Made by a program: the position numbers and the translations under genes. A DNA stretch of 64,000 bases, taken from the NCBI GenBank assembly GCA_030731745.1, contig JANQTJ010000020.1, positions 1-64,000 on the forward strand, in the 5' to 3' direction. Shown one piece after another: positions 6,437 to 52,671 of the stretch. The stretch comes from Flaviramulus sp. GTDB lineage: Bacteria; Bacteroidota; Bacteroidia; Flavobacteriales; Flavobacteriaceae. The notes beneath the pieces were generated by a model. That model saw only the letters and a program-made list of their open reading frames with translations. It was not told the origin of the DNA and did not search any database. Numbering within the stretch: the first letter of the stretch is position 1; each line of letters begins with the position of its first letter.

Positions 6437-9400
6437 TTATCTTACAATGTATAACCAACCTGCTCTTGGTTCTGATCCATCACCTAGGTCTAAAACATAA
6501 TAATAGGTTCCTACCGGTAATTTTTCATTTTTGTTTACAACCGCTCTTCCGTTGGAAACTCCATCAAAGGTATTGTCATAACCTTCTTTTACATAAACTA
6601 CATTACCCCATCTGTTATAGATTTCAAGCTTATTGTTAGGGTAATTATTAATACAATCGATATAGAAAAATTCATTTTTACCATTCCCATTAGGTGAGAA
6701 TTCATTGTAAATATGTAAACATTGAGGATCTATTGTGGCATCATCTGTATCATTGCTTTCATCTGAATCAATTTGATCTAAGAATTCAAGTGACGCTGTA
6801 TTTACATAATCATTAATATCTAATACTTTAACAGTAATTTCTAACATTTCACTTGTACCTGCTGAAACCGATGGGATATTCCACAATCCAGATAACTCAT
6901 CATAAATTCCAGATGAAGCTTCGTAAGATATAAACTCATATCCACTTGGTAACAAGTCGATAATTTCTACTGAAGTAGCATCAATACCGCCTAAGTTTGA
7001 AGCTGTAATAGTAAATATTACCGTTTCAGCTATTGAAGGGTTAGCATTATCCACAGTTTTTGTTACCGCTATATCAGCAATTGGTGTGTTAATGAATGTA
7101 CTATCTTCATCATCTTCACTTTGGTCGCCATCATCATTATCAGGTTCACTGTTCGGATCAAATTGATCGCTTCCAATAATTTGAGCTATGTTTAAATACT
7201 CACCACCTTGTAATGTTGGCATATTTACAGTAGCATCATAAGTAATTGTTAATCCAGACAATGGCACATTTAAACCAGTCCAAGTAATAATGTTTCCTAT
7301 GAGTTCTCCACCATCGCTTATATTGGTAATATTACTGTAACCAATTGGTAAGATATCTTCTAGTGCAACGCCAGTCGCTGCATCAACACCTGCATTATCT
7401 ATTTGTAATGTAAAGGTTACCACATCGCCTACATTAGCATTCATGTTACTTACGGATTTAGCTAAACTTAAATCTGCAGTTTCAGTCATCACTAATATTC
7501 CGTCTTCATCATCTTCACTTTGGTCGCCATCATCATTATTTGGCTGACTATTAGGATCTATCACATCACTTGCAGTTACTTCGGCACTATTAAAATACTC
7601 GCCTGCTGTTCCTGTTGGTGCATTTACTATCACATCAATAAATAAACTTTGCGAGCTTCCGTTTGGAACAGTACCAACAGTCCATAACCCTGATACTTCA
7701 TCATATATTCCTGAAGTTGCACTAAAACGTACAAAGTCAAATCCTTGTGGTAATAAGTCTATCACCTCTACGTTAGTAGCTGCATCCGGACCTGCATTGT
7801 TTACTGTAATTTGGAATGTGATTTCGTCTCCAACATTTGGCATAATTTCATTATCTACTACAGTTTTCACTAAAGATAAATCTGCCATAGCATCTACTGG
7901 AGTAATTAATACATTGTCTTCATCATCCTCACTTTGGTCGCCATCATCGTTATTTGGTGCTGAATCATTATCCGCAACATCAGATCCTGATATTTGAGCG
8001 GTGTTTAAGTAATCTCCAGAACCGTTGACAAGAGCGTCAATTAATAACGTTTCCGTTGCACCATTAGCAATATTACCAATGTTCCAAATTCCTGTTACTT
8101 CATTATAAGTTCCAGATGTTGAACTGAACAAGATATAATCGAAACCTGATGGTAACAAGTCTGTTACTTCTACTCCTGTTGCGTCTTGTGGCCCATCATT
8201 TGTTACTGTTATTATGAATGTAATTTCAGAACCTACAATAGGCATTGTATCTCCATCAACAACATCTTTTGTTAATGATAAATCTGCAACAGAAATTACT
8301 GGGGTTACTATGGCATTATCTTCATCATCCTCACTTTGGTCACCATCATCGTTATTTGGTGTTGAATCTGAATCTGTTATATCAGATGAAGTTACTTCTG
8401 CAATATTTAAATAATCACCTGAAGAATTTACCAATACATCTATCAATAAAGTTTCTGATTCTCCATTGGCTATTCCACCAATATTCCAAATACCTGTTGT
8501 TTCATCATAAGCTCCTGATGTTGAACTAAACAATACATAATCATAGCCAGATGGTAATAAGTCTGTTACTTCAACACCTGTTGCATCTTGAGGACCATCA
8601 TTTGTTACTGTAATTTGAAATGTGATTTCTGAACCTACTAGAGGTGTCAAATCTCCATCTACAACAGTTTTTACTAACGATAAATCTGAAACAGATTCTA
8701 TTGGTGTTACAATAGCGTTATCTTCATCATCTTCACTTTGGTCACCATCGTCGTTGTTCGGAACAGAATCAACATCAAAAACATCTGAAGACGTTACTTC
8801 AGCAATATTCAAATAATCTCCTGTTGCATTGACTAAAACATCAATTAATAAAGTTTCAGATTCACCTGATAACACAGTGCCCAATGACCATAATCCTGTT
8901 GACTCATTATAAGTTCCTGATGTAGAACTGTACAATACAAAGTCATATCCTGATGGTAATAAATCCATCACTTCAACTCCTGTTGCATCTTGAGGACCAT
9001 CATTAAACACTCTTATTTCAAATGTAATTTCAGAACCTACAAGTGGTGTTATATCTCCATCAACAACTATTTTAGTTAATGATAAATCTGCCTGTGCTGG
9101 TGCTATCGTAATAGCATCCTCGTCATCATCGTCGCCATCGCCATCGCCATCCTCATCCACTGTCTCATCGGTAGTTGGGTCACTATCTGGATCGTACTGA
9201 TCACTTGCCGTGATTTGTACTGCATTGGTATACTCACCTGCTGCTCCTGTTGGGGCATTAACTAACGCCTCATAAGTAAGCACTACTGTACCATTATTTG
9301 CCGCTACACTTAATCCTGTCCAACTTGCTGTGTTACCTGTTGGTGTCCCACCATTATTTACTGTTCCTAATGTATAGCCTGCTGGTAAAATATCTTCTAC

Positions 9401-12400
9401 CGCTACACCTGTCGCTACATCTGGTCCTGCATTGGTAACCGTTAATGTAAATGTTACCGTATCGCCTACGTTTGGACTCGTGTTACTTATCGTTTTGCTG
9501 ATACTTAAATCGGCTTCTTGTATTGTTACGCCTACAGTGTCTTCATCATCGTCTGGGATGCCATCACCATTATCATCTACCGTATCATCGCTTGTTGGAT
9601 CACTGTCTGGATCATACTGATCTGAAGCTGTAATCTCTACGCCGTTAATGTACTCATTTGCAGCTCCTGTTGGAGCATCTACCGTAACATCAAAGGTTAA
9701 TGTAACGGTATCTGTGCCTAATGGTACGCTTAAGCCTGTCCAATTTACTGTGTCTAACCCTGCTAAGCTTCCTGCGCCACTTATGTTAGTAACATTACTG
9801 TAGCCCGCTGGCACAACATCTTGTATAGAAACACCCGTGGCCGCTACACTTCCGTCATTACTCAAGGTAATACTAAAGGTAACTACATCACCTACATTTG
9901 GCGTGCTGTCACTTACTGCTTTTGATATACTTAAATCTGAGGTCTGTGGCGTTACCGTGAAGTTATCTTCATCATCTTCACTTTGATCGCCATCATCGTT
10001 GTCAGGAGTACTGTTTGGATCGAACTGATCGCTACCGGTAATCTCTGCTACGTTGGTGTATTCTCCTGCTGTACCCGTTGGGGCATTAACTACAACATCG
10101 TAACTTAAAGTGATACTTGTTGTACCTGCTATACTTGCTATACTCCAATCGATTTGGTTACCTGTCTGGATACCTCCATTATCAATTGTAACTGTGGTAA
10201 TGGTATAACCTGCTGGTACAACATCCGAGACATCGACATTGGTCGCTGTATCTGGCCCATTGTTGGTCACAACAACCTCGAAGGTTACCGTATCCCCTAC
10301 ATTGGGGGTAGCACTACTTGCTGCACTGATGCCTTTGGCTAAAGATAAATCGGCTTGTGCTGGTACTACGACTTCATCATCCTCGTCATCTTCACTCTGG
10401 TCGCCATCATCGTTATCTGGATTACTATCTGGATCATACTGATCACTACCTGTAACTTCAGCTATATTTCTATATTCATCAACAGCACCTGTTGGAGCAT
10501 TAACTGTCACTTGATAACTTACAGTTGTTCCTGCTAATGGTACGTTCAGACCGCCCCAAGTAATTGTGGTATTACCAAGATTGAATGTTCCGCCGTTATC
10601 TATACTGCCTGGAACTAAACTATAACCTATTGGTAAGACATCATCGATACTTACGCCTGTACCTACTGCTGTACCACCATTGCTTATTGCTATACTAAAA
10701 GTCAGTATATCGCCTACGTTTACTGGTGCGCCATTGACGTCGGCTACCGTTTTATCTATTGATAAATCTGCTGTTTGTGGTACGATAACAAAAGTATCTT
10801 CATCATCGTCATCGCCCCCTGTTGTTGGGTCGTTGTCACCATCAGCATTATCTTCATCTACTGTATTGTCTGTTGTTGGATCACTATCGGGATCGTATTG
10901 ATCGCTTCCTGTGATTTGTGTCACATTTAAATATTCGTTTGGTACTCCTGTTGGAGCATTCACAGTTGCTTCATAAGTTACCGTAATACTGCCACTTGAC
11001 GGTACACTTAAGCCTGACCAAGTCGCTGTGTTACCAGCACCTGTTCCCGCATTGTTTACTCTCCCTAAAGTATAACCTATTGGAAGGATATCTTCTACTG
11101 ATACGCCAGTGGCAGTATCTGGACCATCATTGGTAATCACCAATTCGAACACTAACGTATCGCCTACATTTGGTGTCGCGCTCCCTGAGGCTAAACCTTT
11201 AGCTATACTTAAATCTGCCTGTGCTGGTGCTATCGTAATAGCATCCTCGTCATCATCGTCGCCATCGCCATCGCCATCCTCATCCACTGTCTCATCGGTA
11301 GTTGGGTCACTATCTGGATCGTACTGATCACTTGCCGTGATTTGTACTGCATTGGTATACTCACCTGCTGCTCCTGTTGGGGCATTAACTAACGCCTCAT
11401 AAGTAAGCACTACTGTACCATTATTTGCCGCTACACTTAATCCTGTCCAACTTGCTGTGTTACCTGTTGGTGTCCCACCATTATTTACTGTTCCTAATGT
11501 ATAGCCTGCTGGTAAAATATCTTCTACCGCTACACCTGTCGCTACATCTGGTCCTGCATTGGTAACCGTTAATGTAAATGTTACCGTATCGCCTACGTTT
11601 GGACTCGTGTTACTTATCGTTTTGCTGATACTTAAATCGGCTTCTTGTATTGTTACGCCTACAGTGTCTTCATCATCGTCTGGGATGCCATCACCATTAT
11701 CATCTACCGTATCATCGCTTGTTGGATCACTGTCTGGATCATACTGATCTGAAGCTGTAATCTCTACGCCGTTAATGTACTCATTTGCAGCTCCTGTTGG
11801 AGCATCTACCGTAACATCAAAGGTTAATGTAACGGTATCTGTGCCTAATGGTACGCTTAAGCCTGTCCAATTTACTGTGTCTAACCCTGCTAAGCTTCCT
11901 GCGCCACTTATGTTAGTAACATTACTGTAGCCCGCTGGCACAACATCTTGTATAGAAACACCCGTGGCCGCTACACTTCCGTCATTACTCAAGGTAATAC
12001 TAAAGGTAACTACATCACCTACATTTGGCGTGCTGTCACTTACTGCTTTTGATATACTTAAATCTGAGGTCTGTGGCGTTACCGTGAAGTTATCTTCATC
12101 ATCTTCACTTTGATCGCCATCATCGTTGTCAGGAGTACTGTTTGGATCGAACTGATCGCTACCGGTAATCTCTGCTACGTTGGTGTATTCTCCTGCTGTA
12201 CCCGTTGGGGCATTAACTACAACATCGTAACTTAAAGTGATACTTGTTGTACCTGCTATACTTGCTATACTCCAATCGATTTGGTTACCTGTCTGGATAC
12301 CTCCATTATCAATTGTAACTGTGGTAATGGTATAACCTGCTGGTACAACATCCGAGACATCGACATTGGTCGCTGTATCTGGCCCATTGTTGGTCACAAC

Positions 12401-15400
12401 AACCTCGAAGGTTACCGTATCCCCTACATTGGGGGTAGCACTACTTGCTGCACTGATGCCTTTGGCTAAAGATAAATCGGCTTGTTGAATTACAAAAGTA
12501 ACGGTATCTTCATCATCATCATCGCCACCAGTTGATGGATCGTTATCGCCATCGGCATTATCTTCATCTACTGTATTGTCTGTTGTTGGATCACTATCAG
12601 GGTCATCTAGATCACTTGCTATAATTTGCGCACTATTTGTATAATTCCCTGAGTCATTTACAATAGCATCGTAAGTTACTGTAGTTGATAATCCATTACT
12701 TAAAGATAAATTATTCCAAACAATTGAATTATTTCCGATATTATAAACTCCCGAATCTGTTATAGTTCCTGGTACAATATCAAAACCTGAAGGTAAAAGG
12801 TCTTCAATATCTACACCTGTAGCATCACCTGCTCCAAAGTTTTCTAATAAAATGGTAAATGTGACTGTATCTCCAACTGAACCCGAAATTGGCAAAACAG
12901 ATTTTGTTAATTGTAAATCTGCTGTTTCTAATACTATAGTAGCATTGTCTTCGTCATCTTCACTCTGGTCGCCATCATCATTATTTGCATTACTATCAGG
13001 ATCTGATTGGTCGCTAGATATAATTTCAGCTGTATTTAAATATTCATTTACTACACCAGTAGGTGTGTTAATAGTCGCTATTATATTTAAAACAGCAGGA
13101 ACTCCAGTAGTAATAGAACCTATATCCCAAACTCCTGTTCCTGCGTTATAATTACCTCCTGAATCATCACTTTGATAAGCATATCCACTAGGTAATTGAT
13201 CTAAAACATCAACATTTGTTGCTGTATTTGGACCAGCATTTGTTACTGTTATTGTAAATGTAACATTATCGCCAACACTAACATTAGTTGGAGAAACTGT
13301 TTTTTGTAATGATAAATCTGCAGATAGAATAGTAACTGATGCTGTATCTTCATCATCATCATCGCCACCAGTTGCAGGGTCTCCATCACCATCGGCATTA
13401 TCCTCATCTACTGTTTCATCTGTAGCTGGGTCACTATCTGGATCTAAATTATCACTTGCCGTAATTTGAGCAGAATTCACATAAGGTCCCGAAGCATTAA
13501 CGGTTGCGTTAAAAGTTAAGTTTAAAGTTGCTCCATTTAAAATAGCTAAATTAGTCCAGCTGATAGTTTGTGTTCCTAAATCGAATGTGCCACCATTCGA
13601 AACTGTTCCAGGCACTAAAGAAAAACCTAATGGCAAAACATCTTCAACATTAACACCAGTTGCATCAGCATTTGTTGCACTTGTATCATTATTGAAAATG
13701 GAAACTGTAAATGTAACAATGTCTCCTACATTTACATTTGGAGTTGATACCGTTTTTGTTAATTCTAAATCTGAAATTGGATTAATAGTAATAGTTACTT
13801 CATCTGACGCATTACTACACGTTCCGTTGGAAACAGTCCATCTAAAAACATACGTTCCAACTGTTGTTCCTGTAACTACAGTTGCGGGATCATTTTCATC
13901 AATAAAATTAGCTGCAGAAGGACCAGAAACTTGAGTCCAAGTTCCTACTCCAGCACTTGCGGGAGTTGCGCCTAACGTTACTGTTGAAAATTCTGGTAAA
14001 GATTGATCTGGGCCTGCGTTTGCAGTTATTGGATCTGAATATATAAGAATTTCCATAGTGTCAACGGAAGTACATCCTCCTCCAACTGCTGTCCAAGTAA
14101 ATTGATATGTTCCAGCAGATAACCCAAGCACTAAACTATTTGGGTTATTTGGTGCTGTAATTGTTGCCGGAGCTCCTCCTGTTTGCGTCCAAGTTCCAGT
14201 ACCTTCAGCCAAAGGTGTTGCTGAAAGAAAAGCTTGAGTGTTGTCACAATATTCCTGATCTGGACCTGCAATTGCTTGAGAAGGCGGTATTCCTGTATAA
14301 GTTAAACTTACTACATCAGATTGTGGTGCACATGCAGATGGATTTACAAAAGTTGCTCCTGAAGATGGAGGAGGATCATTTGTAACTGTCCAAGTTAATA
14401 CATACACATCATCAATTCCGTCATTTCCAACATCATCTGGAATATTACTTAATGATGTTTGTGGGTTATTAGGAGAGTCTATGATTACAAGACCGCCAGA
14501 TGGATCATCTCCAGGATTTGCAAAAGACCATTGACCAATTCCAACAGCTGGAGCCGTTGCATTAAGCACTGTATTTTGTTGACATGCTAATGGCTGATTT
14601 GGACCAGCTTCAGCTGGACTAGGCCCTTCAAAAACCTCAATTCTTACTATACTTGATTTATCTGTACAAAAACCTGTAGCAAAATTTAATTCGAATATAT
14701 ATAACCCAGGAGCTGATAATCCATTTACATCTGTTGTTTCACTATTGTTTGGCGATACAATTGTTGCTGCCGCTGGACCTGACAAAAACCGCCACTCTGA
14801 GGTAACATCAGCTGGAATTTCAGGAAACATCATCGTTGGATCTAAATTACCAGTCGTTAATGTTGCAGTTGTTGTATCTCCCATGCATATAAATTGGTTT
14901 TCGCCTGCATTAGGATCTTGACTCGGTCCATCACTAACTGTTACAGTTACCTGTTCTGTATTATTACACACAGATCCAGCTCCAGTATAATCAGTTGTAT
15001 ATTCGAATATGTAAACAGAACCAGCATCAACAGGTGCATTTGCTGTATTACTATTACTTGGTGATTGTGTTGGGGCATAAGGTGCTATAATGGCTGGAGT
15101 TGTATCGCCATCAACAGAAATTATACTCCATGTTCCTGTTGTACCCGATGTTGCTTCTAAAAAAACGCTTGTAACTAAACAAAGTTCTTGATCTGCCATA
15201 GGTTGTGCAGGAGCAAAAACATCAATAGTAACATCATCTGAAGAATTAGGACAAAACGGCGAACTACCAACAATGGTCCATCTAAACACATAAGAGCCTG
15301 TTGTAAGATTTGTTACGTTTATGGCATTGTTTCCTGGATCATTTATAGTTGGTGTGTTTGGTCCAGAAACTACGGTCCACGTTCCAGTTTCAGCATTTGG

Positions 15401-18124
15401 GTTAACTAAAGGATCAGCCGTAATATTTGTGTTTGTCGCCGCACAAATTACTTGATTTCCTCCTTGAATAACAGCTGTAGTAGGTGGAATCCCTACTTCA
15501 ATTGTAACTTGATCTGGTGTAGCGGAGGCTACACAATTCCCAAAATCAATTGCCCATTCAAAAACATAAGTTCCGTCTAATAAATTTGAAAAAGTTGCCG
15601 TTGGACTATTAATATCACTTACAGTATAACCTCCTAAACCAGAAACTAAATTCCATGTACCTTGTCCTCCATCTGGTGCAGGAGTTGCATTCATATCAAA
15701 AGATAATAATACAGGGTCTAAACATAATTGTAATTGGTCTGGGCCAGCATCAATAACTGTACTTGAATCAGCTACAACAACTTCTACTGTATCTAGTGTT
15801 GATGGACATGCATTAGGCGGTGGTGCAGAATAAGCTATTTCCCATTGAAATTCATATTGCCCATCTATTAATCCTGTAACTTCTGATGTTGGGCTATTTG
15901 GACTTGTAAAAGATGCTGCATTTGGCCCTGAAATTTGTGTCCAAGTTCCTGTCTCATCAACATCTGGTACATTTCCACTAAGGTTTGGAATTGTCGTCAC
16001 ACCAGATCCAAAACAAAAATCTGCCCCAGCATCAGCTATTGTAGGCGATTCATCTGCCGAAGTTGTTATAATAACATCATCCGTTGCAGCTGGGCCACAG
16101 TTTACAAAATCATTTAAAAGAGACCATGTTAATGTATAAACCGTTGAAGGTAATGCAAAACCTGTTGCTATCGCATTTGGATCATTTACATCAGAAAAAA
16201 CGACGCTGGGATCTGAGGCAGTCCATGTTCCTGTTTGGCTATCTGTACCTGGATCTGCAGCTAATTGTACCGGCGCATTAAAACAAACTGTTTGATTTGC
16301 TCCAGCTTCAACAGGAGAATTATCTAAAGGAGAAACAAAAACACTAGTATCAGATACTAGTGGTGGTGTACAATTTGGGCCAGCAGTTACAGTATATCTA
16401 AACACATATTCCCCTGGAATAAGTCCCGATATAGTTGTGGTTCTAGCATAAATATCTGCTATGGTTGCAGTATTTGGACCAGATACCTGAGACCATACTG
16501 AAATTTCTCCAGGTAAAATGGCACTACCAGCAATTGTACCTCCAACTTGACCACAAATAAAAGTTTGAGGCGATCCTGCATTGGCACCAGATATAGGAGT
16601 AGAAATAAATATATTAATGGCATCGTTAGCAGTATCACAACTCTGTAAAAGATTACCTGTTCTTATTCTTCTAAAATTTACTGTATATGTACCGGCAACA
16701 TCAAAAACATTAATATTGGCTGTACCACTATTTGCACTTCCCAAATTTGTATATGCTGTTGGAAATGTTAGTCCTGAATCTGCAGGACCGTTAACAATAC
16801 TATATTCTGTTCCATTTCCGCTTGTTGAAGCATATGGAACAGGAATTGACGTATCACCACAATCTCCAATAATATCGTTACCAGAATTTGCACTCATGCT
16901 TATAGGATTTACATTATACCTAACATTAACAATAGCACTGGATGTACAAAGAGTAGCCGAGTTTTCAATGGTATACCTAAATTGGTAGGCACTAGGAGAT
17001 GTAAGTCCTGTAACCTGTGTTGTGGCACTAGTTGGGTCTACTATTGTAGCGGCAGGACCACTTATTTGTTCCCAAAGTACCGTTTCATTTGTAAAGTCTG
17101 GAGAATTCCCTACTAAAGTCGTTTCAGTAATTGATGGATCACAAAAACGTTGATTATCATTAGAAATGCTAGCCTGTGTAACATCTTGCGTTGCCGGTGG
17201 TACAGTAACTGTAACTGTATCACTACCAGAAACACAAGGTCCAACAACATCCCATCTAAATGTATAAACCCCCTCAGACAAACCATTAACACTTGTATTA
17301 TTCGCATTAGGACTAACAATATTTGGGCTTGACGGCCCACTAACAAATGACCATGTGCCTTCTTGACCATTAATATTGTTACCTCCAAAGCTTCCGTTTA
17401 AATTTGTGTTTTGGCTTACTGTATAACAGTTAGATAATGTTTGATCAGTACCAGCATCAACTGGTGTTTCACCACCATAATTAGTAATTATAATGTCATC
17501 AAAGGATTCACAAAATTGTCCTGGTGCATATTCGGCACCTGTAATAGTCCATCTTAAAGTAGTTGTCCCAGCACTGCCTTCAGGTAAAGTAATTGTAGAT
17601 GTGGCAGAATTAATTTGGTTAACTACAACTCCTGCCCCGTTAGTTCCATTTACAGACCAAACTCCCGTTTCTCCGGGGTTATCTGGAGCATTTGCATTTA
17701 TTATTAACGAACCTGAACTGTCTGGACAAGAAGACACATCTGAACCTGCATCAGCTATGGTAATTGGCTCTACTATAAACGAAACTGTTTGAGAAGGTGT
17801 ATCTCCATTTGGGCAAACCGCGGATAACTGAAATATATATGTGTTTCCTCCAGAAAATCCTGTAATTACTGGATTATCAATTGAAGGGTCACTAATAACT
17901 ACTAATGGACCTCCGATTTGTGACCACGTAGGCCCTTCTGCATAAGTATCTGGTGAATTACCATTTAACTGAAAAAGGTCATTAGAACAAATTGTTTGAT
18001 CAATGCCAGCATTTATTGTACATGATTGAGCATTTAATGAATCTGCACCAAATAATAGTAATAGTAATAAAAAAGCATATATGTATGTAATACTTGTTTT
18101 CTTGCCAGGGTAGAGATTATCCAT
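6437..18124 (-). CDS. giant repeat adhesin with T9SS type B (gliding-motility-associated) C-terminal domain
   Basis: A 3,895-residue cell-surface protein. Signal peptide: residues 1-33, ending SLNAQ. Residues 34 to about 1450 hold about 15 Ig/PKD-like units of about 95 residues, each with DAGPDQ..C near the start and GTWSQVSGP then [15 protein letters not shown]. About 1450 to 3800 hold 17 DUF11 repeats (DLSLxKTVxxxxPNVGDxVTF ... NxGPxxATxVxVxDxLPxGY) joined by Asp-rich linkers such as [19 protein letters not shown] that probably bind calcium. The last 95 residues ([18 protein letters not shown] ... YNRWGNVVY ... [13 protein letters not shown]) are a clear type B sorting domain. Two 425-residue segments (about 1880-2305 and 2589-3014) match at every stretch compared. 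Probable role: adhesion or gliding, exported with the two genes downstream. No catalytic domain is visible. Confidence 0.95.
9083..10358 (-). repeat. 1,276-bp direct repeat within the adhesin gene, copy 2 in protein order
   Basis: I found no difference from 11210-12485 in any stretch I compared; the copies diverge at both ends (9082 against 12-base-equivalent 11209, and 10359 against 12486). The offset is 2,127 bases, a multiple of three, so the copies are in the same frame. Each encodes three DUF11 repeats. Confidence 0.9.
11210..12485 (-). repeat. 1,276-bp direct repeat within the adhesin gene, copy 1 in protein order
   Basis: Partner of the copy at 9083-10358. The 851 bases between the copies (10359-11209) encode two further, non-identical DUF11 repeats, so recombination between the copies would remove or add 709 residues without breaking the frame. 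Confidence 0.9.
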
Positions 18125-18515
18125 TTAGAGATTTTTAAAGTTGATATATTAATTGTCTAAAATAAAAAATTGACCTTTTTTTGATACTTTTAAAAAAAAA
18201 TATTTTGTTTTTATCGATAAAATACCAATTAAAACGTTTAAAAATAAAAAATGAGAGAAAATAATACAATAAATATAGTATAACACTGTAAACTCAGTGA
18301 AGCAATTTATATTTCAAATATAAAGACATATATCAACTCCTATGAAATAACTTGTTAACAAAAAATTGTTAATAAATTTCTTACGCTATTAAATTTAGAA
18401 TATTTGCATCAATAATTTGAGTAAATGTTAATCTTCTTTCAATTTTTTCTAAACAATTGAAAAAAAAATATAGATGCTGAAACTTCGAACTTGCATGAAA
18501 AGAAACAATTATTGA
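18125..18515. other. AT-rich intergenic region upstream of the adhesin gene
   Basis: This 391-base stretch is very rich in A and T and holds no supported gene. It must carry the promoter of the minus-strand adhesin operon, but I see no good TAnnTTTG element close to the start codon; TATTTTAG on the minus strand about 40 bases upstream of the start is the nearest, with one mismatch. Confidence 0.4.
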
Positions 18516-18649
18516 AAACTGACGTTACATATTTACAAAGAGATTGACGATATGGAATTTCGATTTCCTAAAGGTAAAATGTCCCACGAGGTTTTAAGAA
18601 ATATGAACCTCTACTAAAAACGCAAATAGAAGAAACAAGCAACTCATAA
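18516..18649 (+). pseudogene. possible remnant of a protein-coding gene, frameshifted
   Basis: Two short frames read like protein. From 18516 the frame gives LTLHIYKEIDDMEFRFPKG and then KMSHEVLRN before a stop at 18615. A second frame gives KKYEPLLKTQIEETSNS and stops at 18647-18649. A single frameshift near 18592-18598 would join them into one basic and acidic C-terminal fragment. I do not recognise the family. The position beside a recombinase and a broken tRNA fits mobile-element debris, but the piece is short and chance cannot be excluded. Confidence 0.25.
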
Positions 18650-18804
18650 ACTCATCATCAAACAAAATTATTGATATTAGGGCAAAACAATATTTTTGAT
18701 GTCAAATATATTCAAAACCAATTATTCTAAATTAAATCTGTGAAAACTACAAAATGTTGTATCTATGTTGTACCTGATTAAAAAACACAACCTTTATAAA
18801 CGAA

Positions 18805-18832
18805 AAAAGCCGAAGATTCCTCTTCGGCTTTT
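18805..18832 (-). terminator. strong intrinsic terminator following the tRNA-Leu relic
   Basis: Read on the minus strand: AAAAGCCGAAGA, loop GGAA, TCTTCGGCTTTT, then further T residues. The 12-bp perfect stem begins 2 bases after the discriminator position of the tRNA-like sequence, so it looks like the original terminator of that tRNA gene. Confidence 0.85.
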
Positions 18833-18833
18833 G

Positions 18834-18915
18834 TACAGGCGGCGAGACTCAAACTCCCACACATTGCTGCATTAGATCCTAAGTCTAACTTGTCTACCAA
18901 CTCCTCTAGGTTCAA
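18834..18915 (-). pseudogene. degenerate tRNA-Leu (anticodon UAG)
   Basis: The minus strand aligns along its length to bacterial tRNA-Leu(UAG): AGTTGGTAGACAAG for the D loop, TTAGA-CTTAGGA-TCTAA for an intact anticodon arm with TAG, a long variable arm GCA-GCAA-TGT, and GGGAG-TTTGAGT-CTCGC for the T arm. The acceptor stem does not pair (TTGAACC against CGCCTGT gives one Watson-Crick pair), the D stem has lost two of three pairs, the T stem has a G-G mismatch and the invariant C56 is T. It therefore should not make a working tRNA. A TAAATTTG promoter-like box at 18913-18920 overlaps its 5' end. It lies between the integrase and the adhesin and probably marks an old integration. Confidence 0.75.
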
Positions 18916-19027
18916 ATTTATTGATTTTTGGCCTTTATTTGGCTAGGTCCAAAAACGATTTTACAACCACAAACTAATACTTTCCACTATTTGAAAAACC
19001 CTACTTAACCCAAAAACCAATTTTAAA

Positions 19028-20248
19028 TCACTCTAATATCAATTTTAGCTTTTCCATGTCCTGACTCACCTTCTTTTCCACTACTCTAGCGTAGATTTGT
19101 GTTGTCGCCAACTTTGTATGACCCAAAAGTTTTGAAACCGTTTCTATTGGAACACCATTAGTTAAAGTTACGGTTGTGGCAAAGGTGTGACGCGCCATAT
19201 GAAAAGTAAGGTTCTTATTGATACCGCAAAGATCCGCTAGTTCCTTTAGATAGCTATTCAATTTTTGATTGGACAATTTAGGTAGAAGAATATCATTATT
19301 AGAAGTTCTAAAATTATTTTTATACTTATCGATTAAGAAACTAGCCTTAGGAAGTAAAGGTATTTTAAAAGGTGTTCCAGTCTTAATTCTCTTGGCTGAT
19401 ATCCAAGAAAGACCATCTATTCCCTTTACTAAATTAACGGTTGTCAATCGAACAATATCACTATAAGAAATACCTGTATAACAACTAAAAACAAATAAAT
19501 CTTTAACAACTACTAGACGTTCAATCTTAGAGGATAAATTCTCAATACTTTGTAATTCCTCGCTAGTAAGAAATTCTCGTTCCTTCTTTTCAATTTTTAT
19601 TTTATAATTAACAAATGGGTCTCTATCAATCCATTCCATCTGATAAGCAAGAGTAACCATTCTACGTAATCGTTTTATATGTTTCATAGCTGTATTATTT
19701 CCAATTTTAGATTGGCCACTCTTTGGTATATACGAGCGCAGAAAATCTTCAAAACCTATTACAAAACTATAATCAAGTTCAGAGAGAAGAATATCGGTAA
19801 TTTTATATTCTTTTAAAATATACTCCATCATATACCTTTGACTAGTCTTATATTGACCCATAGTATTTTTATGCAACTTGTGTTGCATCTTATGATTATG
19901 ATAGTCAATAAGATTTTGAAAAGAAAAACGCCTACTGTCTTCACCTAGATATCTAGCTTTTACCATTTGGGAAGTAAATGGCTTATCGTCCTTCTTAAAA
20001 TCTTCGTAAATCCGATAAACTTTTGATTGTACCTCGTTCAAATAAAGATTTAGAATACGTGAATCCTTATCTGTCCCAATTGCTCTCTGGGTTTTTTCAT
20101 CCCAAGTAGTAATATTAATTTTCCTTTTGAGACTAACATTAACGCGCTTACCATTTAAGGTAATACGCACGTAGATATTTACTTGATCTTTAATGACTCG
20201 TTTACCGTATACCCAAAACAGTACTGAAAATGTTGTTGAAGTTCTCAT
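19028..20248 (-). CDS. tyrosine site-specific recombinase (integrase) of the Bacteroidota mobile-element type
   Basis: A 406-residue integrase. Residues 1-85 form an arm-site DNA-binding domain (VYGKRVIKDQVNIYVRIT, a pattern of Bacteroidota integrases), about 108-205 the SAM-like core-binding domain, and 225-406 the catalytic domain. Catalytic residues visible are His350 and Arg353 in HMARHTF, His377 in LGHTKLATTQIY, the nucleophile Tyr386, and Lys286 as a candidate. The first catalytic arginine, normally in a TGLR motif, is absent (TGISYSDI at 258-265), a change also known in IntDOT-type enzymes. It is flanked by tRNA-Asp and the tRNA-Leu relic, with no excision, mobilisation or cargo genes nearby, so it looks like the remainder of an integrative element. 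The reading frame is intact. Confidence 0.92.
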   Translation of the reverse strand: MRTSTTFSVLFWVYGKRVIKDQVNIYVRITLNGKRVNVSLKRKINITTWDEKTQRAIGTDKDSRILNLYLNEVQSKVYRIYEDFKKDDKPFTSQMVKARYLGEDSRRFSFQNLIDYHNHKMQHKLHKNTMGQYKTSQRYMMEYILKEYKITDILLSELDYSFVIGFEDFLRSYIPKSGQSKIGNNTAMKHIKRLRRMVTLAYQMEWIDRDPFVNYKIKIEKKEREFLTSEELQSIENLSSKIERLVVVKDLFVFSCYTGISYSDIVRLTTVNLVKGIDGLSWISAKRIKTGTPFKIPLLPKASFLIDKYKNNFRTSNNDILLPKLSNQKLNSYLKELADLCGINKNLTFHMARHTFATTVTLTNGVPIETVSKLLGHTKLATTQIYARVVEKKVSQDMEKLKLILE

Positions 20249-20420
20249 AGTTGTCGTCTTTTAATGGTTAAACATTATTGAGACGAAAGTCAAATCAACT
20301 ATAATTATATGAGTAAGTTACGTAATTCTGTCAACATAATTAGTAATAAAAAGATATGTTGACGATTTGTGACCTTTTAGAATCAAATAGAACCGAATTC
20401 TATGATTCCCCTAAAAAGAT

Positions 20421-20454: not shown

Positions 20455-20478
20455 GAGGGTTTTTGACAACCCTTTTTG

Positions 20479-20552
20479 CGGTCTGGACGGGACTCGAACC
20501 CGCGACCTTCGCCGTGACAGGGCGACATTCTAACCAACTGAACTACCAGACC
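20479..20552 (-). tRNA. tRNA-Asp (anticodon GTC)
   Basis: A 74-base cloverleaf on the minus strand: acceptor GGTCTGG pairs with CCAGACC, discriminator G, D arm TAGTTCAGTTGGTTAGA, anticodon arm with CTGTCAC (GTC anticodon at 20516-20518), and T arm GCGGGTTCGAGTCCCGT. The CCA end is not encoded. All stems pair and invariant bases are present. Confidence 0.97.
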
Positions 20553-22646: not shown

Positions 22647-22763
22647 ATTTGAGCGCATAAAACAGGCTATCCGCTATATCTTTTTTGTGTTAAACTTTTT
22701 AGCTATCAAATCAAGTTTATTAATGTCACAAAAAAGGATGCCGCTTCTATCCTTTGCGCAAAT
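22647..22763 (-). ncRNA. structured element after dnaE, possibly a Flavo-1-like RNA
   Basis: It begins on the last base of the dnaE stop codon. Minus strand order: ATTTGCGCA, AAGGATAGAAGCGGC, ATCCTTTTTTGTG, a variable loop, CACAAAAAAGAT, ATAGCGGATAGCC, and TGCGC-TC-AAAT. The outer arms pair (GCGCA with TGCGC, then ATTT with AAAT) and the inner arms pair over 12 bp with one bulged C. An alternative short hairpin, AAAGGAT with ATCCTTT followed by T residues (22755-22731), could act as the dnaE terminator. The element at 37784-37868 shares the AGGATnGAnGC and GCGnAnAGCC blocks. The Flavo-1 assignment is from memory. Confidence 0.5.
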
Positions 22764-25700
22764 CAATTCAGCTTATAAAAAACATTATTGTTTTCCAATT
22801 CATTAAGCAATTCTTGTGATACTTTCACTTTTTGTTTTCTACTAGGCATGTTAAGTTTTATTTGATCTTTATTATCGTAAACCACAAAATTAAGCATTTG
22901 GTTTCCAGGATGCATATGCAAAAGTTCTTTTAAAACATTGATTTTTTGAGGTTCTAAATCATCTATATTAACTTGTATGGATAATTTTTTAGCATAATTT
23001 TCCATCACATCATGCAACAATTGGAAACTATTAAACTGCAGCCTAGGATCGCTTTTGTTTCCTGTATCTTTATTTACCCATCCTTCACGAACAAAAGTTT
23101 TAACAAAAACAAAGTTGTTTTTCATTAAAAAATGCCTGAATTTTAAATATTCTTCACCAAAAATTCTAAACTCAAAAGTATCGGTATAATCTTCAATAGT
23201 AAACAAAGCCCAACCTTTACCTTGTTTGCTTACGCGATGCTGAACATCTGTTACAACGCCTCCAAAAACCATTTCCCTATTCACAAAAGATTCTAAATCT
23301 CTAAAAAGGGCTAAACTCGCATTACAAAACGTATTCATTTCTGTTTTAAAATCATCAAGCGGATGCCCAGATATATATATACCTACTACTTCTTTCTCAC
23401 GAGCCAGTTTTTCCATAGTACCCCATTCTTCACAAGGTGGCACTTGGGGTTCTGCTATTTGTACATCACTAGCATCTCCAAACAAACTTACTTGTGAAGA
23501 ATTTTCATTTTCTTGATGCTTAGCCCCGTATTTGATGGCTTTCTCTAAAAATGTAATACCATCACCTTCGTCATGAAAATACTGAGCCCGATGAGTATTT
23601 CCTAAACCATCAAATCCACCAGCTAAAGCCAAATTTTCAAAAGCTTTTTTATTGGCTGCTCTTAAATCGATACGTTTGGAAAAATCAAAAATAGATTTAT
23701 AATGTCCGTCCTTTTTTCTGTTTTCAACAATAGTTATTACAGCTCCTTGACCCACACCTTTAATAGCACCCATACCAAAACGTACTGCGTTATCTTTATT
23801 TACTGAAAATTTATAGAACGATTCGTTAACATCAGGACCAAGCACAGGTAATTTCATACGCTTACATTCTTCCATAAAAAAGGTGACCTGCTTAATATCA
23901 TTCATATTATTAGAGAGTACAGCAGCCATATATTCCGCAGGATAATGGGCTTTTAAATAAGCTGTTTGGTAAGCTATCCAAGCATAACACGTAGAGTGCG
24001 ACTTATTAAAGGCATAACTTGCAAATGCTTCCCAATCTTTCCATACTTTTTCTAAAACCTTAGCATCATGCCCATTCGCACTTGCTTGCTCGATAAATTT
24101 AGGTTTCATTTTATCTAGTACAGCAATTTGCTTTTTCCCCATCGCTTTTCTTAAAACGTCGGCTTCACCTTTTGTAAAACCTGCTAATTTTTGCGATAGT
24201 AACATCACCTGCTCTTGATAAACAGTGATACCATAAGTTTCCTTTAGGTATTCTTCCATAGCTGGAAGGTCATAATCTATAGCTTCATTACCGTGTTTTC
24301 TTCTAACAAAACTTGGTATATATTCCATCGGACCCGGTCGATACAAAGCATTCATCGCAATTAAATCTTCAAAAACTGTAGGTTTTAAATCTTTAAGATG
24401 TTTTTGCATTCCGGGAGATTCGTATTGAAAAACTCCAACAGTTTCTCCTTTTTGAAATAACTCATAGGTTTTTTCATCATCAAGTGGAAACGTATCAGGA
24501 TCTAATAAAATATCGTGTTTAGCCTTTACAATTTTAACCGTATCTTTAATAAGTGTTAAGGTTTTTAAACCCAAGAAATCCATTTTAAGCAACCCTGCTT
24601 CTTCAACAACCGAGTTGTCAAACTGAGTTACATACAAATCCGAATCTTTTGCTGTAGCTACTGGTACAAACTTGGTAATATCATCTGGTGTTATAATTAC
24701 ACCACAGGCATGAATCCCTGTATTTCTTACAGATCCTTCTAGGATTCTTGCTAAATTTACGGTTTCAGCTTCTAAATCGTCTCCTTCAGAAATATTTAAT
24801 AGCTGATTCACCTTTTCTAAATCTTCAGCTCTAAATTTACTGCTCAATTCCTTTTCACTTAAACCAAAAATTTTATTTAGCTTAGACATGGTTGGAATTA
24901 ATTTCGCAATTCTATCAGCATCAAATAAAGGCAAATCTAAAACACGAGCAGTATCTCGAATAGATGATTTTGCAGCCATTGTGCCGTAAGTAATAATTTG
25001 CGCTACTTGATTGCTTCCGTATTTATTAATTACGTAATCCATAACACGGCTTCTACCTTCATCATCAAAATCGATATCAATATCGGGCATACTAATACGA
25101 TCTGGATTTAAGAAACGCTCAAAAAGTAAATCGTATTTAAGCGGATCTATGTTAGTAATCCACAAACAATAAGCTACTACTGAACCTGCTGCAGACCCAC
25201 GACCTGGACCAACAGATACATCCATTTTTCGGGCTTCTCTAATAAAATCTTCAACAATTAAAAAGTAACCTGGATACCCTGTGTTTTGGATAACACTTAG
25301 CTCAAAATCAATACGTTCCTTAATATCATCGGTTAAATCAGGATATCTTTTTTTAGCACCCTCATAAGTAATGTGTTTTAAATAAGCATTTTCACCACGT
25401 TTGCCACCATCAACTAAATCTTCTTCATTTTTAAATTCATCAGGGATATCAAAAGCAGGTAATAACACCTCTCTTGCTAACTCGTATGATTCAACTTTAT
25501 CAACAATTTCTTTTATATTAGTTATAGCATCTGGTAAATCTTTGAACAAAAGTTTCATCTCATCCGAAGACTTGAAATAATAATCTTGATTTGGCAACCC
25601 ATAACGATACCCTCTCCCTCTGCCTATTGGTGTAGCTTGCTTTTCGCCATCTTTTACACATAATAAAATATCGTGTGCATTGGCATCTTCTTTTTTACAA

Positions 25701-28515: not shown

Positions 28516-28562
28516 CGCCCTTATTAATAACAGAGGTCGAGAACCTCAAATAATTAATTATT

Positions 28563-52518: not shown

Positions 52519-52559
52519 TTAATTTTAGTGACTTACCCTTTGGGTACACTTTTCGTTTC

Positions 52560-52590
52560 AATCTTTTTATTTAAAAAAATAAAAAGGATT
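52560..52590 (+). terminator. possible terminator after the saccharopine dehydrogenase gene
   Basis: AATCTTTTTATTT and AAATAAAAAGGATT form a stem of 12 pairs with one bulged base, around a short A-rich loop. The following T run is weak, so the assignment is tentative. Confidence 0.4.
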
Positions 52591-52671
52591 TTCACTTAAA
52601 TCGCTATCGTAACTCGTTGTTTCAATTTAAAAGTAAATGGTTATTTTTATGTTTTTAAATGAAATCATAAT

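Follow-up and report, generated by a model that had tools for sequence, protein, structure and literature searches.

In the tRNA-dependent lysogeny described by Guerrero-Bustamante and Hatfull for mycobacteriophages such as Fionnbharth, the short attP/attB core lies within a host tRNA gene that is not rebuilt at either junction. According to the parts of that account used here, the phage supplies a tRNA of the same isotype, and secondary sites are used if the phage tRNA is lacking (PMC10865867). The same source, in the part drawn on, places the core of NBU1 of Bacteroides at the 3' end of the tRNA gene (PMC10865867). In Islander-type islands, a split tRNA gene and its displaced fragment mark the two ends, and the disrupted gene is usually restored, as far as the sections used here describe (PMC4383910). 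Closer in taxonomy, ICEEaII and ICEEaIII of Elizabethkingia are Flavobacteriales conjugative elements located beside tRNA genes including tRNA-Leu and tRNA-Asp; ICEEaII uses tRNA-Leu-CAA, and the passages of that report considered here do not mention a replacement tRNA (PMC8694125).

Here we analyse a 64,000-nt stretch of the Flaviramulus sp. genome (positions 1 to 64,000 of contig JANQTJ010000020.1, referred to as the window), which contains a degenerate tRNA-Leu(UAG), the relic, at 18834–18915 on the minus strand. We put at roughly 80% the probability that the relic is a replacement tRNA-Leu(UAG) in decay, carried at the left end of an element that targets tRNA-Leu(UAG) and now lying a short way into another element, itself integrated at tRNA-Asp. 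The first element would belong to a family defined by IntL, a 404-aa tyrosine integrase; the second carries its own tyrosine integrase, int-Asp, which is about 25% identical to IntL. The genome assembly (G000) comprises 2.36 Mb in 46 contigs and is 75% complete, with the window on contig C20; its relatives make up a single family.

The relic tRNA-Leu(UAG) and its flanks

Similarity to tRNA-Leu(UAG) spans the full length of 18915–18834 in an end-to-end alignment, and the tRNA-Leu(UAG) gene of the same genome is 87% identical to 18904–18838 over 67 nt. With a covariance model built from 20 intact tRNA-Leu(UAG) genes, the relic sequence being left out, the relic is the top match in the window (58.7 bits, E 1.7e-11) and the second best is a tRNA-Asp with 23.6 bits. 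Chance similarity was rejected on this score, and the position, strand and isotype proposed in an earlier note on this DNA stand. Among the 38 loci scanned with the same model, intact tRNA-Leu(UAG) genes scored 102.8–114.2 bits, a lightly damaged copy in G049 (L033) 90.7 bits, and the 3' remnants at L028, L029, L030 and L194 48.8–65.9 bits.

In the cloverleaf of the relic, 16 of 23 pairs are standard and seven are broken (four in the acceptor stem, two in the D stem and one in the T stem) and C56 is replaced by T, whilst the anticodon stem (TTAGA/TCTAA) and the variable arm (GCA/TGT) remain paired, this kept pairing being as the earlier note had described. The minimum-energy fold predicted for the region is not a cloverleaf. 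ARAGORN called no tRNA at the relic and Rfam did not report it even up to E 5. The relic therefore does not qualify as a callable tRNA, and the 7-bp acceptor stem, the D and T stems and the C56 of a functional tRNA-Leu(UAG) are not all present. The earlier note had made its reading depend on this not being the only such gene in the genome, and an intact tRNA-Leu(UAG) indeed lies on another contig (G000:C25:24887–24968). The relic is thus not required for translation, and its role as a functional or sole tRNA-Leu(UAG) was rejected.

The flanks of the relic are those of an element left end. Upstream, a decayed leader (18916–18950, minus strand) fills the stretch between the inferred crossover (GGA) and tRNA nt 1 and contains GGACCTAGCCAAATAAA, which is identical to an element leader at 15 of 17 positions. 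Matches of this quality arose in 3 of 2000 dinucleotide shuffles when allowed anywhere and in 0 of 2000 at the right distance; the leader has decayed, yet its match is significant. Directly 3' of the relic is the intrinsic terminator of the element-borne tRNA (18803–18832, minus strand; a 12-bp hairpin followed by a T run), intact as previously noted, and most element-borne copies are followed by the same terminator sequence. It is succeeded by the direct repeats GGTACAACAT and GATACAACAT (18754–18774, minus strand), putative arm-type integrase sites that also occur 3' of element-borne tRNAs and, at the other end of the elements, between IntL and the 3' part of the tRNA in 26 of 30 IntL loci. 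Downstream of the repeats, about 300 bp show similarity to other elements' left ends, and a remnant of left-end DNA was assigned to 18445–18753 (minus strand): in a blastn search with the reverse complement of 18125–19027, L053 matched at 88% over query positions 178–364, and L056 at 78% over 109–364 and 68% over 390–583. Leader, full-length tRNA, terminator and GGTACAACAT repeats therefore stand in the order and at the spacing of a left end. The sequence upstream is GTTTTTGGA rather than the 5' half of a tRNA, so no host 5' stub lies ahead, and this left end is an ectopic copy, outside the host tRNA-Leu.

The parent family of tRNA-Leu(UAG)-targeting elements

IntL has matches in 61 of 299 family genomes (E<=1e-90), and the architecture of its elements was established from the best 30 loci, of which 26 contain tRNA-Leu; the 26 corresponding genomes were searched for tRNA copies. 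In those 26 loci the 3' part of tRNA-Leu(UAG), starting from nt 25 or 30, lies 191–241 bp from the IntL start, with GGTACAACA repeats in between. In each of the 26 genomes a single match to tRNA-Leu(UAG) extends from nt 1 to nt 70 or beyond, and in every case this full-length copy sits at the left end of the element. It is preceded by a 5' stub (nt 1 to 39–43) in 25 of them, the exception being G030, and it shares a contig with the 3' remnant in 22, at distances of 29–115 kb. In these genomes tRNA-Leu(UAG) is thus cut around nt 25–43, within the anticodon arm, the stub lying at one side of the IntL-family element and the 3' part (nt 25/30–82) at the other; the host gene is not rebuilt and the element supplies the sole full copy. 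In a rough contrast across 18 enlarged loci, a 5' stub was present in five (G054, G024, G021 and G012 with IntL, G008 without IntL).

Left ends were measured in 23 of 26 loci taken for this purpose, two having 3' parts only and one having no stub. The distance from the start of the stub to the element tRNA is 73–76 nt in all 23. Of the 23, 19 have the motif TAnnTTTG, which we take to be the Bacteroidota −7 promoter element, upstream of the stub at no more than 70 nt, and none has it within stub plus leader, suggesting that a host promoter drives the replacement tRNA.

The family elements are 29–115 kb in length and found in Flavobacteriaceae, and the annotated ones carry conjugation genes. Pfam matches in the tRNA-Leu element of G210 include a TraG P-loop, TraM, DUF4138 (TraN-like), a coupling protein and DUF5712, and support conjugation as the predicted mode of transfer; two of the ten proteins scanned, its presumed TraJ and TraK, had no Pfam match, nor did the TraJ of G164. 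Tra genes matching those of the G210 element are present in G164 and G195, in elements at tRNA-Asp, and in G123, in an element at tRNA-Leu. A scan of IMG/VR with IntL returned no match.

Judged from sequence comparison, the parent family works like tRNA-dependent lysogeny: a tRNA gene is cut at a short core inside it and not rebuilt, a copy of the same isotype is supplied, and a tyrosine integrase with arm sites is involved. The phage system, as far as the account used describes it, differs in belonging to Actinobacteria, in carrying its tRNA elsewhere in the phage genome and in having been tested by mutation (PMC10865867). IntL elements are of conjugative type, occur in Flavobacteriaceae and have the tRNA at the extreme left end beside the junction, where it probably uses a host promoter. 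The comparison with NBU1 made in the earlier note applies in part: both are Bacteroidota elements with a tyrosine integrase and a leucine tRNA gene. In contrast to the NBU1 core at the 3' end, as given in the portion of the source relied on, IntL elements cut the anticodon arm (the stub ending at nt 39–43 and the 3' part beginning at nt 25/30) and supply a whole tRNA. Split gene and displaced fragment mark the two ends as in Islander-type islands; unlike the usual restoration described for those, a stub and a complete second gene are left. No report of replacement tRNAs in Bacteroidota conjugative elements was found among the open-licence papers searched, which is weak evidence of absence.

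Two further arrangements were observed. In G112 (L208), two tRNA-Leu 5' stubs stand in tandem before one full tRNA, probably reflecting two successive insertions, the second into the replacement tRNA of the first element. In G036 (L048:9297–9648), the 3' part of tRNA-Leu(UAG) lies about 220 bp beyond a tRNA-Met and is followed by the terminator and GGTACAACAT repeats; the annotation shows no integrase between the two tRNA sequences.

The neighbouring integrase and the probable tRNA-Asp element

The integrase adjacent to the relic, int-Asp, is real, as the earlier note had stated: a 406-aa protein (19028–20248, minus strand) with PF00589, PF13102 and PF17293. It lies 230 bp past an intact tRNA-Asp(GTC) called by ARAGORN (20478–20552) on the same strand, the attachment site of its element. 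The 3' end and native flank of this tRNA recur on C25: the flank is displaced to G000:C25:231–418, where it is preceded by the tRNA-Asp core and the GGTCACAAATCGTCAACAT repeat, a motif also found at 20356–20374 (minus strand) in the window and in G164, and marking both ends of the element. This displaced flank and the shared repeat indicate that window positions 1–20478 are probably part of an element at tRNA-Asp, with a contig break between C20 and C25. The corresponding tRNA-Asp element of G164 spans about 98 kb.

Matches to int-Asp occur in 122 of 299 family genomes (E<=1e-60), and at least one tRNA lies upstream of the integrase in all 30 loci fetched, the window's own counted. Every one of the relatives at 68–89% identity (L063–L068) adjoins tRNA-Asp. 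In GTDB contigs with int-Asp loci at 80–93%, a tRNA-Asp is called beside the integrase in nine of 11, and the other two (L244 and L248) retain just the last 22 nt of tRNA-Asp there. The closest relative in these contigs is from an uncultured Flaviramulus, the named relatives are Flavobacteriaceae, and IMG/VR yielded two relatives, at 50% and 37%. Int-Asp is therefore not the partner of the relic and belongs to the tRNA-Asp at 20478–20552; as the maker of the relic it was rejected, its relatives adjoining tRNA-Asp and its own junctions lying at tRNA-Asp and C25.

Several other features deserve mention. Two paralogous integrases in G000 (C32:9573–11071 and C4:58217–59710), 46–47% identical to int-Asp, lie directly 3' of tRNA-Pro and probably mark additional elements or what is left of them. 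A noncoding block of about 190 nt, conserved 3' of tRNA-Asp in relatives (L128–L135) and present in displaced form at G000:C25:231–418 (L236), is possibly an undescribed small RNA; the displaced copy on C25 matched nothing in Rfam at gathering score. Positions 6437–18124 encode a DUF11/PKD repeat protein of 3895 aa that carries a CHU_C type IX secretion domain, adjoined by PorP/SprF and OmpA-like genes and probably within the tRNA-Asp element region. Just inside the left end of the G164 element, a DUF6088/AbiEii gene pair (L122:11094–12256) is a possible type IV toxin-antitoxin. Elsewhere in the window, Rfam matched two Flavo-1 RNAs (22656–22764 and 52538–52612) and an S16-Flavobacteria ribosomal leader (28523–28558).

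Ectopic copies in relatives

The order in G164 is that of the window: tRNA-Asp, an integrase at 89% identity, tRNA-Leu(UAG), terminator and repeat. The ectopic tRNA-Leu(UAG) of G164 is intact (103.8 bits), begins about 29 nt after the integrase stop codon and is accompanied by a second, native tRNA-Leu(UAG) elsewhere in the genome. G049 (L056) has a near-intact ectopic copy (90.7 bits) and a native copy on another contig. Native tRNA-Leu(UAG) is therefore intact in all three genomes with an ectopic copy (the window's, G164 and G049), and the states of the copies, that of the window being badly decayed, fit relaxed selection on a redundant tRNA, although three cases are few. The junctions of the window and G164 are at or near the crossover of the element, as secondary-site insertion would give.

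Proposed origin and alternative explanations

In the favoured reading, an IntL element inserts into the host tRNA-Leu(UAG), leaving a 5' stub and a 3' part, and its left end brings a complete tRNA-Leu(UAG) with its own terminator. The host promoter upstream of the stub would then transcribe through stub and leader, and RNase P may free the replacement tRNA, the sole remaining full-length copy. Since the left end in the window lies elsewhere than in tRNA-Leu and C25 retains an intact host gene, the extra tRNA is redundant and, having captured no promoter, would have decayed. It may have reached the tRNA-Asp site through secondary-site insertion by IntL or through exchange of integrase modules between related conjugative elements.

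The second route gives a variant in which int-Asp has replaced a lost IntL in moving a tRNA-Leu element, so that the tRNA-Leu would be left over from the earlier attachment module and not from a nested second element. The conjugation module of the tRNA-Asp elements of G164 and G195 is shared, at 73–97%, by the tRNA-Leu element of G210. In addition, G195 has a 36-aa relic of the IntL C-terminus some 1.3 kb beyond int-Asp; relics of this kind are also present in G312 and G337 and absent from G253, as module exchange would give. Against it, the junctions of the window and G164 differ, no element was caught in mid-swap, and L240, with an integrase at 93%, has no tRNA-Leu; we rate this variant a serious contender at somewhat under even odds. 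That the relic might instead be the displaced 3' fragment of a host tRNA, an ordinary attR scar of the neighbouring integrase as is usual for tRNA-targeting islands, is suggested by the integrase being 113 bp away and by the better preservation of the 3' part. The relic nevertheless retains a D arm, a 5' acceptor strand and a leader, with similarity running from the leader to nt 82 rather than from a crossover with a 3' part only, whereas the 3' fragments of the family begin at nt 25–30; int-Asp has its relatives and junctions at tRNA-Asp, as set out above, and the host tRNA-Leu is intact and distant. The leader match and G164 already largely refute this explanation, which we regard as very improbable. 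The earlier note's view of a copy left by an old integration accordingly holds in kind, although the relic neither duplicates the host tRNA nor is a displaced 3' fragment produced by the adjacent integrase.

A functional small RNA, that is, a repurposed tRNA-like transcript ended by the terminator and acting for instance as a regulator or decoy, would account for the retained anticodon and variable-arm pairing, the intact terminator, a fold z-score of −2.1 (terminator included) and a TAnnTTTG-like motif at 18920–18913. The spacing of that motif to any upstream TTTG is unusual, and the motif, being A+T-rich, could be chance. The kept pairs and terminator are those of functional relatives such as L192, the minimum-energy fold is again not a cloverleaf, and no other copy was found to have decayed in the same way; we regard this origin as very unlikely. 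The compensating stem changes listed in the earlier note also occur in the fully intact element-borne tRNA of G123 (L192); they were inherited from a functional element-borne tRNA and are not evidence of a new role.

Several observations weigh against the relic being a simply decayed replacement tRNA of an ectopic IntL element. Of its 12 differences to L192, nine fall in nt 1–15, a 5' bias that simple neutral decay does not predict. The distance from the integrase stop to the crossover is about 77 nt in the window and 0–5 nt in G164, so the two may be separate events, and the G049 copy is preceded by an IntL-like pseudogene, not int-Asp. Four of the 30 IntL loci have repeats without tRNA-Leu. 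Neither the window nor the 100 kb of G164 that were analysed yielded the other end of the ectopic tRNA-Leu element, and when the 3' flank of int-Asp was sought at other places in the element of G164, as a sign of a nested far end, the matches were short and weak only. In the 75% of the genome represented by the G000 assembly there was no IntL match (E<=1e-90) and no TraG match, the latter search having no positive control genome.

Implications

On the comparative evidence, the balance tips slightly towards a broader proposal: that conjugative elements of Flavobacteriaceae integrate in a tRNA-dependent manner, disrupting the one host tRNA-Leu(UAG) in its anticodon arm, capturing the promoter and providing the only working tRNA, so that imprecise loss would be lethal (a tRNA-based addiction). 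The window would then be a natural control, with a supplied tRNA rotting in a genome whose own tRNA-Leu(UAG) gene is intact. If true, this would explain why these genomes contain tRNA-Leu genes that are extra or broken, and a 5' stub followed by a full tRNA would be an exact marker for mapping such elements. Replacement of an essential host tRNA would then not be confined to phages, and large conjugative elements would become indispensable in a bacterial family.
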